Positions 28,543 to 59,292 of a DNA stretch of 64,000 nucleotides are shown piece after piece (position 1 is the first letter of the stretch; every line of letters begins with the position of its first letter). The notes under the pieces are model-generated. The model worked only from the letters and a program-made list of their open reading frames with translations. It was not told where the DNA came from and ran no database searches. The stretch spans positions 1-64,000 of IMG/VR virus record IMGVR_UViG_3300025141_000034, one strand, 5' to 3'. The position numbers were made by a program, and so were the translations under genes. The DNA is from a virus.

Positions 28543-29376
28543 ATGACTGAAAATAATTTTCCGACAGGTAAGCCCCATATTTCTTTTTCCGAAGTCAAGA
28601 TATGGAAGGAATGTTCCTGGAGGCATAAGCTCATGTACGTTGATAAGGTTGATACATTTAAACCCTCTCCTTATTTAGATTTTGGAACTGCCGTTCACGA
28701 GGGATGTGAAACACTCCTTGAGACAAGAAAGGTTGATAAGAAAAAGCTTTTTAATGACATCACAGATGCATGGAAAAAGCACAGATTTGATGAGCCTGAG
28801 TGGTATGAAAAGATGCCAAAGTGGTATAAGCACGTACCCGTTGAAGAATGGTGTAGGTGGGCTGAAAATATGTGGGCTGAGGTTCCTGACTTCTTAGATG
28901 AGACATTTCCCAACTGGAATGCTGTAAAGGCCGAGGAGTATCTCTATGAGGAGATAGAGGGAAAGGATATTAAGTTTAAGGGATTTATTGACGCAGTTAT
29001 TAAAGTTCCAAAAAAGCGCGGCGAGGGATTTAACTACTGGATCCTTGACTGGAAGACATCGCAATCTTATGGGTGGCGAAGACAAAAGAAGCAAGATCTT
29101 TTAATGACAGCACAGCTTATTTTATATAAGCATTTTTGGGCTAGAAAGCACTCTGTACCTCTCAAGGATGTGCGTTGTGGTTTTATCCTACTAAAGCGCG
29201 GGGGTAAGCCAGGACGTATCTGTGAGCTGGTTACAGTATCTGTAGGACCCAAGACTTTAGATAGGGGGATTAAGCTTATGAATAGCATGATAGCCTCCGT
29301 CTATAATAAAATGTTTCTAAAAAATAGAGACTCCTGCACATACTGTCAGTTTAAAAATACAGAACATTGTACCTGA
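28543..29376 (+). CDS. PD-(D/E)XK nuclease with Fe-S cysteines (Cas4/RecB-like)
   Basis: This 277-residue protein has F-I-D150-A-V-I and I-L-D169-W-K171, the core of a PD-(D/E)XK nuclease. It also has C24 (in W-K-E-C-S-W) and C265-x2-C268-x7-C276 near the C-terminus, the four-cysteine pattern of the iron-sulfur cluster in Cas4, AddB and related RecB-like exonucleases. It is probably a phage exonuclease in recombination or DNA processing. No cas genes or repeats are nearby, so I do not read it as CRISPR. It separates the glycan block from the virion genes. Confidence 0.82.
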   Translation: MTENNFPTGKPHISFSEVKIWKECSWRHKLMYVDKVDTFKPSPYLDFGTAVHEGCETLLETRKVDKKKLFNDITDAWKKHRFDEPEWYEKMPKWYKHVPVEEWCRWAENMWAEVPDFLDETFPNWNAVKAEEYLYEEIEGKDIKFKGFIDAVIKVPKKRGEGFNYWILDWKTSQSYGWRRQKKQDLLMTAQLILYKHFWARKHSVPLKDVRCGFILLKRGGKPGRICELVTVSVGPKTLDRGIKLMNSMIASVYNKMFLKNRDSCTYCQFKNTEHCT

Positions 29377-29383
29377 TTTACTT

Positions 29384-29391
29384 TATAATAT
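29384..29391 (+). promoter_or_regulatory. Late-promoter-like octamer TATAATAT
   Basis: TATAATAT is similar to the T4 late octamer TATAAATA and lies in the 50-base gap between the nuclease and the glycosyltransferase at 29427. Transcription would start near 29397, inside the 5' arm of the hairpin at 29390-29416. There is a gp55-like sigma factor in the same window to recognise such elements. The call rests on similarity and position only. Confidence 0.35.
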
Positions 29392-29416
29392 CTCAGTGTT
29401 AATATTTCACTGAGGT
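29390..29416 (+). promoter_or_regulatory. Hairpin sequestering the ribosome-binding site of the 29427 gene
   Basis: CTCAGTG (29392-29398) and CACTGAG (29408-29414) pair perfectly across a 9-base AT loop, and T29391-G29415 and A29390-T29416 extend the stem. The only Shine-Dalgarno candidate for ATG 29427, GAGG at 29412-29415, lies wholly in the 3' arm. A read-through mRNA would hide it. An mRNA starting near 29397 would lack most of the 5' arm and leave it free. Confidence 0.5.
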
Positions 29417-29426
29417 TTATAGACAT

Positions 29427-30674
29427 ATGACAGAAAAGAAGAAGGTGTTGATCTTATCTGATCACGCCCTTTCAACTTCGGGTGTGGGTACTCAAACTAG
29501 ACATCTTGTTAATGGTCTTTTGACCAAGAATGAGTGGACATTTAGACAGTTCGGTGCTGCATTAAAGCATGGCACATATGATACAGTTGTTGTCAATGAG
29601 GATTTTATAATTAAGCCTATTGACGGCTTCGGTAGCAGAGACCTAATCAGGGTTGCACTTGCAACAGAAAAGCCTGATATTTTATTTATTTTCACAGATC
29701 CGAGATTCTTTATCTGGCTATTTGAGATGGAGGATGAGATCCATCAAATTTGCCCGATAGCGTGGTGGCATGTATGGGATAATGAGCCATATCCTAGCTT
29801 TAATCATGTCTTATACGAATCTGTCGATCTCATTAATTGTCATTCAAACATGACATACAACTTAATTAAAGACAGGGTCAATAGTAAGACAAACTTTATT
29901 CCACACGCTGTCCCAGAGACATTATTTTTTCCACTATCTCAGACTGATAGACTCTCTTATAAAATGCAGATCTTGGGAAAAGACAGACTAGATCATTTTG
30001 TTGGAATTTGGGTTAATAGAAATGCTAAAAGAAAAAGGCCTGCAGATGTTGTAGAGTCCTGGAAGATTTTTGTTGACAATATTGAGAAAGAACACGGTCA
30101 TAGAAAGGCTACATTAATAATGCATACAGACCCCCACGATCAGGAGGGTCCAAACCTGTTTAAGAATGTTGATCTTCACAGCATCTCAGATAATGTTTAC
30201 TTTTCCACTGATCGGTTAGAGTTTGAGAAAATGAACGTTCTTTATAACATATCTGACGTCTGTATTAACATAAGCTATGCAGAGGGCTTTGGCCTCTCAA
30301 CACTCGAGGCCATGATGACAGGTTGCCCAATGGCTGCAGTTAAAACAGGCGGATTGACAAGACAGGTTGTCGATCACACAGACGGATCTGAAAATGGTGT
30401 TGCTCTTCCTGTTGAATTTAGGTCGCTTGTAGGCTCTCAGCAGGTACCATTTATTTACGAAGACTACGTCACATGTGAGACAACAGCTGCTGGGCTGATG
30501 AAACTCTTCAATCTTTCAGGTAGTGAAAGGACTAGTCTAAGAGATAAGTGTCTAAAATATGCAAGAGAAAACTTTGCCTTAGAAAAGACTATTGATGAGT
30601 GGCACGATACAATGAAAAAACTCTCTACTGAGTGGAGAGGGGACTATAAGAGATGGGAATGTTTTACGCTATAG
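29427..30674 (+). CDS. GT4-family glycosyltransferase
   Basis: This 415-residue GT-B enzyme has G-V-G-T-Q-T-R-H (about 17-24) as the acceptor-domain glycine loop, F-I-P-H-A-V-P (about 153-159), W-V-N-R-N-A-K-R-K-R-P near 194-204 for the donor phosphate, and S-Y-A-E-G-F-G-L-S-T-L-E-A (about 283-295), a perfect E-x7-E motif. It is therefore a well-preserved GT4. Unlike the GTs of the glycan block it stands next to the nuclease and sigma genes. It could glycosylate phage proteins, DNA or a host target. Its translation start is covered by a hairpin (29390-29416). Confidence 0.85.
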   Translation: MTEKKKVLILSDHALSTSGVGTQTRHLVNGLLTKNEWTFRQFGAALKHGTYDTVVVNEDFIIKPIDGFGSRDLIRVALATEKPDILFIFTDPRFFIWLFEMEDEIHQICPIAWWHVWDNEPYPSFNHVLYESVDLINCHSNMTYNLIKDRVNSKTNFIPHAVPETLFFPLSQTDRLSYKMQILGKDRLDHFVGIWVNRNAKRKRPADVVESWKIFVDNIEKEHGHRKATLIMHTDPHDQEGPNLFKNVDLHSISDNVYFSTDRLEFEKMNVLYNISDVCINISYAEGFGLSTLEAMMTGCPMAAVKTGGLTRQVVDHTDGSENGVALPVEFRSLVGSQQVPFIYEDYVTCETTAAGLMKLFNLSGSERTSLRDKCLKYARENFALEKTIDEWHDTMKKLSTEWRGDYKRWECFTL

Positions 30675-30685
30675 GGGACAAATAG

Positions 30686-31852
30686 ATGAAAAAAGTCATT
30701 ATTAGAGCACCGCTTCTATCATATAGCGGATATGGAACACATTCCAGACAAATTTTTAAGTGGCTTCTTACAAGAAGAGACTTCGATGTAATAACACAGG
30801 TAGTCCAGTGGGGAAATACAACGTGGATGCTTAATCAAGAGTTAGAGAATGGGCTGATTGGAGAGATAATGAAAAGATCTGGTCCCGAAAATCAGTATGC
30901 AGATATCTCAATTCAGGTTCAATTACCAGATGAGTGGGATCCGACATTAGGAAAATTTAACATCGGTGTTAGCGCATTTGTTGAGACTGACATGTGCAAC
31001 CCTGAGTGGATTAAGAAGATTGATACAATGGATCTTGTCATAGTTCCATCTGAACATGTTAGAGAGACGATAATGAGAACTGGAAGTCCAAAGACACCGA
31101 TCCACGTTGTTCATGAGTCCTACATCGAGGAAATTGAACAAAATTTAGATCCACTTCCGCTAGAGATTGATACAGACTTTAACTTTCTTGTTCTTGGACA
31201 GTTTACAGGAAATGATCCGTACAATGATAGAAAAAATCTACTACACACATTAAAGTGGCTATTTGAGTCATTTAGTGACGATCCAGACGTTGGAATAGTA
31301 ATTAAGACAAATCACGGGCGAGGAACTAGAATAGACAGAGAGATTACAAAGCAAAAGGTCCAGCAGGTAATTTCAGAGGTTAGAAAGGGTCCATACCCAA
31401 GGGTTCACCTCATTCACGGTAATTTAAGTAATTCTGAGGTTGCATCGCTGTATGCTGTGGAGTCTATAAGGTGTCTAGTCAGTCTCACTCGAGGAGAGGG
31501 GTTTGGCCTCCCTTTGCTAGAGGCATCTGCTGCTAAAATACCTGTAATTGCAACAGCCTGGTCTGGTCATTTGGACTTTTTAAATATTGGAAAATTTATA
31601 CCCATAAATTATAATATTGTAACAATACCTGAAAATAGAGTTGACGGAAGAATCTTTCTTAAAGATTTTAAGTGGGCTGACCCATCTGAAAGCGACTTTA
31701 AGAAGAAAGTTAAAAAATTTAGAAATAATTATAAAAAACCCAAAGAGTGGGCAGTTGAGCTATCTAGCAGGCTAAAAGATACATTTTCTCAGAGAGCAAT
31801 CAGTGTGAAGTATGACGCTTTAATTGATAGTGCATATTGGAGAAGATCTTGA
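30686..31852 (+). CDS. GT4-family glycosyltransferase
   Basis: This 388-residue GT-B enzyme has Y-S-G-Y-G-T-H-S-R (about 13-21) in the acceptor domain, V-I-V-P-S-E-H-V near 113-120, L-G-Q-F-T-G-N-D-P-Y-N-D-R-K-N near 171-185, and R-G-E-G-F-G-L-P-L-L-E-A (about 269-280), the GT4 E-x7-E motif. It lies 11 bases after the similar GT4 at 29427 and ends in a TTGA overlap with the small membrane protein gene. The pair probably act on the same acceptor. Confidence 0.85.
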   Translation: MKKVIIRAPLLSYSGYGTHSRQIFKWLLTRRDFDVITQVVQWGNTTWMLNQELENGLIGEIMKRSGPENQYADISIQVQLPDEWDPTLGKFNIGVSAFVETDMCNPEWIKKIDTMDLVIVPSEHVRETIMRTGSPKTPIHVVHESYIEEIEQNLDPLPLEIDTDFNFLVLGQFTGNDPYNDRKNLLHTLKWLFESFSDDPDVGIVIKTNHGRGTRIDREITKQKVQQVISEVRKGPYPRVHLIHGNLSNSEVASLYAVESIRCLVSLTRGEGFGLPLLEASAAKIPVIATAWSGHLDFLNIGKFIPINYNIVTIPENRVDGRIFLKDFKWADPSESDFKKKVKKFRNNYKKPKEWAVELSSRLKDTFSQRAISVKYDALIDSAYWRRS

Positions 31853-32148
31853 ATTGGGCTTGGGTGATATCTACCTCAATTCTCACTCTACTTCTCTGCG
31901 TGTCTATATATTACAATTATAGATTTGCTTTAATATTGCTCAATCTAGAAGATGGAATAGAGGATGCGCTCGATAGACTGGATGAAAAGTATAATTCTAT
32001 GAGTAAGATTCTAGAGAAGCCTGTTTTTTTTGATAGTCTTGAAATTAGACAGGTTATTAAAGATATAAAGGGCTCAAGAGATGCCGTCCTACATGTTGCA
32101 AATATTCTCGGATCCATTGATGAAAAATCAGCAGAGACTGAAAAATAA
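31849..32148 (+). CDS. Small membrane-anchored coiled protein
   Basis: I choose the TTG at 31849, which overlaps the upstream stop as TTGA and has GGAGAAG at the right distance; a TTG at 31837 is also possible but worse placed. The 99-residue protein has one membrane-spanning segment (about 3-25), then an acidic, helical C-terminal part with heptad-like leucines (L-N-L-E-D-G-I-E-D-A-L-D). It is the only clear single-pass membrane protein in the window. Its function is unknown; a membrane-anchored phage accessory protein is likely. Confidence 0.6.
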   Translation: MNWAWVISTSILTLLLCVSIYYNYRFALILLNLEDGIEDALDRLDEKYNSMSKILEKPVFFDSLEIRQVIKDIKGSRDAVLHVANILGSIDEKSAETEK

Positions 32149-32165
32149 CCTTCTGGAGTGTGGTA

Positions 32166-32909
32166 ATGAGAAATGGAAAAAAGAAGTTTATAAAAATAAG
32201 AAGGCGTAGGGGGAAGGGAAAGCGTAATCTATATTTTCATATGGGAACGCATAATGCAATAGTAAAATTTCAAAGTCTGGAATGTCTTAAGGAAAAAGAG
32301 AAGCTATATATTTCTGAAATCTTTCCTGCTTTTGATAAATTAGTTGAAAATTTAATCTTTATTCACGGATTTCAATCAACTCACGGATCGTTTGAAGATC
32401 TAAAAAATGACTGTGTTGTCTTTCTCTATGAGACTTTAAATAAGTTTGACCATACAAGAGGAACAAAGGCATTTTCTTACTTTAATGTTGTTGCAAAGAA
32501 TTGGCTTATAATAAAGAGCAAGCAAAGATCAAAGCAAATTAGGAGACAGCTCAGCCTAGATGATCCTCTTTCAATCAGTAGAAGAGACATGACTGCAATT
32601 GAAAGCTATAAGGTGATTCCCTCTCAAGACACAGAAATGATCAAAAAAGAGTCTATCGAAAGCCTATTCGCACTTATGAAGGAGATAAAGAAAAAGCTCT
32701 CAGGAGAGAATGAAATTGCGTGTATAAACGCTATCATCGCCCTTTTTGAAAAAATTGACGACATTGACCTTCTCAATAAAAGGGCGATATTCGTGTATCT
32801 TAGAGATATATCAAGTCTTAATCCAAAGCAGCTGTCAATAGCAATGTCATCAATAAGAAAGCACTATAAATCACTGGTGAAACAGGACGAGTTCGATATA
32901 TTCTTTTAA
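32166..32909 (+). CDS. Late-transcription sigma factor, gp55-like
   Basis: ATG 32166 has GGAG at 32155-32158, better than the GTG at 32160. The 247-residue protein has a very basic N-terminus (K-I-R-R-R-R-G-K-G-K-R), then a region-2-like segment: F-E-D-L-K-N-D-C-V-V-F-L-Y-E (about 77-90), L-N-K-F-D-H-T-R-G-T-K-A-F-S-Y-F (about 92-107), A-K-N-W-L-I-I, then R-R-Q-L-S-L-D-D. This matches the core-binding and -10-recognition part of phage late sigma factors such as T4 gp55. It would direct host RNA polymerase to late promoters of TATAAATA type. It is longer than T4 gp55 (185 residues). Confidence 0.72.
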   Translation: MRNGKKKFIKIRRRRGKGKRNLYFHMGTHNAIVKFQSLECLKEKEKLYISEIFPAFDKLVENLIFIHGFQSTHGSFEDLKNDCVVFLYETLNKFDHTRGTKAFSYFNVVAKNWLIIKSKQRSKQIRRQLSLDDPLSISRRDMTAIESYKVIPSQDTEMIKKESIESLFALMKEIKKKLSGENEIACINAIIALFEKIDDIDLLNKRAIFVYLRDISSLNPKQLSIAMSSIRKHYKSLVKQDEFDIFF

Positions 32910-58529: not shown

Positions 58530-58545
58530 GAATTATTTTACCAGA

Positions 58546-58563
58546 ATACAATGTGAATTGTAT
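58546..58563 (+). terminator. Hairpin with GTGA tetraloop
   Basis: ATACAAT (58546-58552) and ATTGTAT (58557-58563) form a perfect 7-base stem around GTGA, which is a GNRA-type loop known to stabilise RNA hairpins. There is no GC-rich stem or long U-tract, so it is weak as an intrinsic terminator; RNA processing or mRNA protection is an alternative. The TATATTTA at 58561-58568 overlaps the 3' arm and could be a late-type promoter for the 58585 gene. Confidence 0.35.
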
Positions 58564-58584
58564 ATTTACAACCAGGAGTAAAAA

Positions 58585-59292
58585 ATGGGCTTCTTAGACC
58601 ACAGTACTAATAATATTATTTTGGATGCTGTTTTAACAGACAAGGGAAGACAGCTTCTTTCAAGAAACGACGGATCCTTTCAAATTGTTAAATACGCGCT
58701 ATCTGACGACGAAGTGGATTATACAATTGTTAAGAAATTTGGACGAACAGTCGGAAAAGAGAAGATAGAGAAGAATACACCAATTCTCGAGGCACTTACA
58801 ACTACAAATGTTGCTCAAAAATATAGGCTGAGAAGCATATCAGTGCCGAATCTCACAAGGCTACCGTCGTTAACACTAGACGGAGTGACGTCTGATACGA
58901 TAACACTGAATGTTGTTAACACTAGAAGCTCATCAGTCACAGTAAAGCAGTCAATCGGCGGTGATCAGCTAGTTCCAACTGAGCTAGTTGACCAGGTCTT
59001 TAGAGTGACAATGAACAACCTATTCCTACAACTATCCGGTGTTAGGCCTGTCACAATTGATTCTGAGAATATTGCAACATATCTTGTTACGAGAGGGTCT
59101 TCACTAGACACTGTAACAGGTGGCGCATCTTTCGCAGGAACAGTTCAGGTTAAATCATCACTCACAACAACGATGTTCAATACATACGGTGTAGCTAGTG
59201 ATAAAACACTAATTAGAACATATGTCACCGTGACTGGTCAACAGTCAGGTGCAGTTAAGAGCTTTTTAATTAAGATCAATAAGACGTCATGA
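58585..59292 (+). CDS. Virion protein with L-D-A-V-L-T-D-K-G-R motif
   Basis: This 235-residue protein starts at ATG 58585 with AGGAG at 58574-58578. The N-terminus has I-I-L-D-A-V-L-T-D-K-G-R-Q-L-L (about 10-24) followed by F-Q-I-V-K-Y-A-L-S-D-D-E-V-D-Y, a motif widespread in tailed-phage structural proteins and similar to the start of the 48273 protein. The C-terminal half is beta-rich. It is likely a fibre- or tail-associated structural protein; exact role unknown. Confidence 0.6.
   Translation: MGFLDHSTNNIILDAVLTDKGRQLLSRNDGSFQIVKYALSDDEVDYTIVKKFGRTVGKEKIEKNTPILEALTTTNVAQKYRLRSISVPNLTRLPSLTLDGVTSDTITLNVVNTRSSSVTVKQSIGGDQLVPTELVDQVFRVTMNNLFLQLSGVRPVTIDSENIATYLVTRGSSLDTVTGGASFAGTVQVKSSLTTTMFNTYGVASDKTLIRTYVTVTGQQSGAVKSFLIKINKTS

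Follow-up and report, generated by a model that had tools for sequence, protein, structure and literature searches.

Hiding a ribosome-binding site from read-through RNA is already known from single genes of T4-related phages. In T4 gene e, structured RNA gives a 100-fold reduction of lysozyme synthesis (PMC3014915), and in T4 I-TevI and segB and phage Aeh1 mobE, all of them homing endonuclease genes served by middle or late T4 promoters, the site is hidden in RNA from upstream promoters and freed by a promoter just upstream of the gene (PMC2988022). These reviews confirm the type of precedent invoked by a first-pass annotation of the DNA analyzed here, which proposed a comparable switch before a glycosyltransferase gene, GT4a. 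Unlike I-TevI, segB and mobE, GT4a encodes a glycosyltransferase and heads a conserved phage operon. From evidence that is computational throughout, we conclude that the 50-nt gap between the stop codon of the preceding nuclease gene and the GT4a start is probably a translation switch gated by the position at which transcription starts; the logic of this predicted switch is well supported by comparison across relatives.

The window, a 64,000-nt stretch of viral DNA, belongs to a virus record of 125,024 bases in which 103 of 104 predicted genes lie on one strand. GT4a, the gene under the putative switch, occupies 29427..30674 on the + strand, begins with an ATG at 29427 and belongs to glycosyltransferase group 1 (PF00534, E 3.1e-10). 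It is preceded on the same strand by a PD-(D/E)XK nuclease gene (28543..29376; Pfam PF12705, E 2e-19; present in 129 of 134 relatives) and followed, also on the + strand, by a second glycosyltransferase gene, GT4b (30686..31852; PF00534, E 6.2e-9; 133 of 134 relatives), a gene for a small protein with a hydrophobic N-terminus that looks membrane-like by eye (31837..32148; 130 of 134 relatives), a gene for a probable, late-sigma-like phage sigma factor (32160..32909; profile and fold matches) and two more genes. Family searches gave no match for the small protein or for the two genes after the probable sigma gene. This gene order is kept in most of the 134 distinct relatives. Because nearly all genes share a strand and a terminator scan called no terminator-like site between the nuclease gene and GT4a, read-through from the one into the other is plausible, and the nuclease gene would be the source of the read-through RNA entering GT4a.

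An Rfam search of the window found no match, megablast against a phage collection found no close record, and a protein search of the phage collection returned only distant Flavobacterium, Microcystis, Synechococcus and Rhodothermus phages and one uncultured phage. Scanning for exact 18-mers of the leader gave 12 matches, four of them the leaders of the window group itself (the window with L054, L033, L056 and L057) and the rest in other DNA; matches within glycosyltransferase-like reading frames at L041 and L049 (LLYNISD) were taken as chance. Elsewhere in the window, a long one-strand block (420-27612) includes glycosyltransferases, a Nol-like carbamoyltransferase and a NeuB homologue, and a 154-nt AT-rich gap at 266-419, containing a perfect ATCTAATTAAT/ATTAATTAGAT inverted repeat, heads a long run of surface-sugar-type genes. 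GC-rich hairpins resembling intrinsic terminators were seen by eye at 81.1, 82.7, 94.6 and 111.1 kb of the record (L406-L408).

The upstream regions of 135 non-redundant GT4a relatives carry a conserved promoter, TTTACT-N16/17-TAnnAT, which exceeds the control threshold in 108 of them. Its boxes are 16 or 17 nt apart in 102 of these 108, within the 16-18 nt of sigma70-type promoters. In the window, the matrix built from the relatives places the -35 box TTTACT at 29377-29382 and the -10 box TAATAT at 29400-29405, both on the + strand, with a 17-nt spacer between them (29383..29399, +). When scored against dinucleotide-shuffled controls, 67 of 78 relatives lie above the 95% level and 45 above the 99% level, counts that are somewhat optimistic in that the matrix was fitted to the same 78 relatives. 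Less dependent on this fitting is the distribution of strong + strand matches in 1.28 Mb of related DNA, where 33 of 35 fall at a GT4a start; a search of the 125-kb record for the exact two-box form gives a single site. By eye, TTTAC is conserved irrespective of whether it comes after the nuclease stop codon or seems to be located within the nuclease reading frame, which speaks for a function at the DNA level. The promoter thus looks sigma70-like, with two hexamers 16-17 nt apart and a -10 box of the TAnnAT type, and differs from sigma70-type promoters in its TTTACT -35 box, with an almost invariant TTTAC, and in its presence at essentially one place per phage neighbourhood. A TTTACC-N18-TATATT element with the palindrome ATACAATgtgaATTGTAT was also observed at 58530-58584, in the intergenic gap that precedes the gene at 58585.

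We infer a transcription start at ~29412, 7 nt after the -10 box and at the GAGG. This placement gains support from the positions of start codons among relatives, since 16 of 108 relatives have their ATG no more than 2 nt from it and none has one at 3-5 nt. The distance is 0-1 nt in L311, L324, L309, L302, L313, L168, L262, L334 and L296. The 16 relatives with a start codon at the predicted start probably make a leaderless GT4a mRNA; 65 relatives have leaders of 9-24 nt.

The promoter overlaps a hairpin. In the window, the upper stem has 9 pairs (29390-29398/29408-29416, +), as defined by folding and a scan of RNA 5' ends, and the lower stem (29382-29388/29417-29423, +) continues below a bulged T29389, for 16 pairs in all. 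Most of the 5' side of the hairpin falls in the promoter spacer, the -10 box lies within the loop (29399-29407), and the Shine-Dalgarno (SD) sequence GAGG (29412-29415, +) forms part of the 3' arm of the upper stem. The first-pass annotation had described the 9-pair stem, the GAGG and the ATG together with a box, TATAATAT, at 29384-29391, and we found each of them at the same place.

Folding at 37 °C predicts that access to the SD depends on where the RNA begins. The probability that the SD is unpaired is about 0.00 for 5' ends from 29250 to 29384 and 0.02-0.12 for those at 29388-29392 (0.03 at 29390, 0.12 at 29392); it reaches at least 0.49 for 5' ends from 29394 on, which leave the SD half to mostly free, and is 0.85 in the computed RNA that starts at 29412 and lacks the 5' arm. 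The expectation of the first-pass annotation that read-through RNA is closed and promoter-started RNA open is therefore borne out by predicted folding. In the short RNA of the window, the AUG is mostly paired (0.23 unpaired). Taken alone, the window fold is only moderately unusual (z -1.93, equalled by 8 of 200 shuffles). In the read-through RNA, however, the SD is less accessible than in shuffles of its own spacer and discriminator (p 0.015), and after an exchange of 5' parts with relatives the window's read-through SD closure comes first of 81.

Together, these features suggest how the switch would work. A sigma70-like promoter is placed such that its -10 box is in the hairpin loop and its predicted start is at the SD in the 3' arm. 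Read-through RNA from the nuclease gene would carry both arms, fold and hide the SD; RNA started at the promoter would be without the 5' arm, leaving the SD free and GT4a translatable. With promoter-started RNA open and read-through RNA closed, GT4a would be made mainly when its own promoter fires.

Gene e of T4, folded by the same method, behaves alike: its long RNA is closed, its promoter-started RNA is open and the late promoter TATAAATA forms the loop. As in GT4a, the promoter element of gene e is the hairpin loop, the SD lies in the 3' arm and the promoter-started RNA is without the 5' arm (PMC3014915). Thus the SD of GT4a is paired in read-through RNA and freed in RNA from the predicted promoter start, both by computation, as in a T4-type switch. 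The two systems differ in that the switch of gene e is proven by experiment and that of GT4a is predicted, and in that gene e uses TATAAATA and GT4a uses TTTACT-N17-TAATAT, an instance of TTTACT-N16/17-TAnnAT rather than a T4 late promoter.

The first-pass annotation had nevertheless taken TATAATAT for a T4-type late promoter that starts transcription near 29397 and holds GT4a back until late infection. RNA begun at 29397 would likewise expose the SD (0.68 unpaired), and the operon does contain a probable late sigma gene. But TATAATAT and TATAAATA disagree at 3 of 8 positions, L054 reads TATAATTC at the same position, and TATAATAT is not conserved, with only 3 of 81 loci having TATAAT in the spacer; the conserved boxes are TTTACT and TAATAT, with TATAATAT in the spacer between them, and it is the conserved -10 box that moves the predicted start to ~29412. 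Nor is the box enriched, as the 3 occurrences of TATAATAT on the + strand of the window are unremarkable, and TATAAATA with up to one mismatch was found 150 times against 133 expected (sd 10.8), which is not a clear enrichment. We therefore reject TATAATAT as a T4-late promoter, and consider the entire account built on it very improbable. What survives of the proposed late promoter within a ribosome-hiding hairpin is a promoter inside an SD-hiding hairpin, one that is neither TATAATAT nor of the T4-late type.

The sigma gene bears on timing as well. Among 32 aligned orthologs of the 32160-32909 protein, 27 match PHROG 234 (phage late sigma factor) at E <=1, with a best value of 6e-6; the window's own protein, unlike most orthologs, gives no PHROG 234 match. 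In fold searches most of the best PDB and viral matches are sigma factors, but these matches are weak, with none in the PDB below 0.001, and a PDB search by sequence gave nothing useful. We regard the gene as one for a probable late-sigma-like phage sigma factor. Because the operon carries this gene, activity of the GT4a promoter is more likely to precede late transcription or to be independent of it, so that a delay to late infection is unsupported and early or middle timing is likelier. We infer that the promoter is most likely used by a host sigma70-type holoenzyme, before late transcription; the operon's own sigma factor may also activate it. The T4 clamp family PF02916 had no match in the record, and controls likewise gave no match anywhere, which makes this result uninformative.

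We then compared the hairpin across relatives, beginning with the window group. In the long RNA of L054, L033, L056 and L057 the SD is locked, so that all five window-group members lock. In their short RNAs the opening of the SD varies (0.16-0.85 unpaired), and in L033 and L056 the SD is still partly paired (0.16 and 0.27 unpaired). The pair 29396/29410 shows a double change in L054, from G-C to A-U, and an A.C mismatch in L033, and the hairpin pairing of L054 is kept through a G-U. The spacer is identical in L056 and L057, the flanking genes of which are 67-87% identical.

For a wider test we used 81 loci, the window included, in which an SD follows the predicted start. We called an SD "locked" if its unpaired probability in read-through RNA was <=0.05, a cut chosen after the data had been seen (0.02 and 0.10 lead to the same conclusion). 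The SD is locked in 20 of the 81, about a quarter, and not strongly locked in 61. Swapping 5' parts among loci gives an expectation of 8.1 locked loci, with 20 reached in 0 of 20,000 permutations; the expectation is 6.1 when every locus has its own spacer and discriminator shuffled, with a maximum of 14 in 200 sets. Several controls were tried in turn, and the first, a spacer-only shuffle of 43 loci, was weaker than these two and mixed (KS p 0.004, Wilcoxon p 0.077); as the discriminator contains some of the 5' arms, the set was enlarged and the swaps and spacer-plus-discriminator shuffles were used. The relatives in these counts are not independent: clustering the loci at 80% and 75% identity leaves the excess in place, but it disappears from 72% downward, where hardly any locus stays separate. 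The start region is also more closed than in shuffles at 35 loci that lack an SD. The hairpin is thus one of several solutions among the relatives, or is absent in many.

Other arrangements were observed upstream of GT4a. In L192 and L247 the -10 box TACAAT is immediately flanked by perfect GGCTAGGT/ACCTAGCC-type arms, and the SD is only partly locked. By eye, L258, L061 and L006 carry a CCACCTATAAATAGGTGG-type palindrome where the nuclease gene ends, its loop containing TATAAATA, and a further pair of arms that surrounds the -10 box and abuts the ATG.

One clade (L202, L325/L204, L205, L207, L209, L210/L349, L212/L350, L214, L215 and L332/L211) has stems on either side of the -10 box that differ in sequence among its members, with the SD or the start region contained in the 3' arm. 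Within this clade L209 is only partly locked, and the stem is weak or absent in L323, L304 and L318. In a hand-anchored comparison of five clade members and the window, pairs just outside the SD change together and the observed helix length is reached by only 2 of 720 re-pairings; as these sequences were picked for having stems, this is an illustration rather than a test. On the GT4a tree the locked label is clustered, with 16 changes against 22.5 for shuffled labels, where L054, L056, L108, L210, L212 and L214 were labeled locked by fold inspection rather than by the threshold. Differing stems at the same place in this clade speak for the switch. The first-pass annotation had asked for covariation of the arms in related phages; in the five-member window group it does not exceed that in shuffles.

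These comparisons bear on three further explanations. The promoter could be real and the hairpin functionless, a chance stem in a context where many spacers are able to pair with GAGG. That most relatives show no strong locking, that the window fold is not extreme by itself and that window-group covariation is not significant would all fit such a stem; it is nonetheless unlikely, as the number of locked loci exceeds two kinds of control and every member of the window group locks the SD in its long RNA. The inverted repeat might instead be a DNA operator for a dimeric regulator that overlaps the -10 box, on which it is centred in the window and which it flanks in several relatives. An operator would not account well for arms that vary in sequence and spacing among relatives with the 3' arm usually staying at the SD, or for pairing maintained via a G-U in L054, and we think it very unlikely.

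The gap that holds the hairpin is also among the longer ones in this dense one-strand genome, and a terminator, or a site of RNA processing that separates two operons, might be expected there. No T-run follows the hairpin, however, and clear terminators elsewhere in the record look different by eye; the hairpin is absent from the terminator scan, and we rejected it as a terminator. We regard a terminator or processing site here as extremely improbable, and continue to favor a switch in which the start of transcription decides whether the SD is exposed.

Here the predicted switch follows the logic of the T4 genes with a different promoter and with differing RNA solutions, at one site within a gene order kept in ~130 distinct phages. 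Tentatively, and with somewhat less than even confidence, we suggest that in a large family of uncultivated phages the first gene of the operon with the probable late sigma gene is translated only upon initiation at a dedicated promoter, through interchangeable and evolutionarily shifting tactics. As part of this same tentative proposal, the tactics would comprise an SD-locking hairpin with its arm in the spacer or the discriminator, a closed start without an SD, and a leaderless start. If the switch is real, its predicted start at ~29412 would be testable by 5'-end mapping, and the locus would offer a sequence-only way to ask how one-strand phages prevent the too-early translation of a module.
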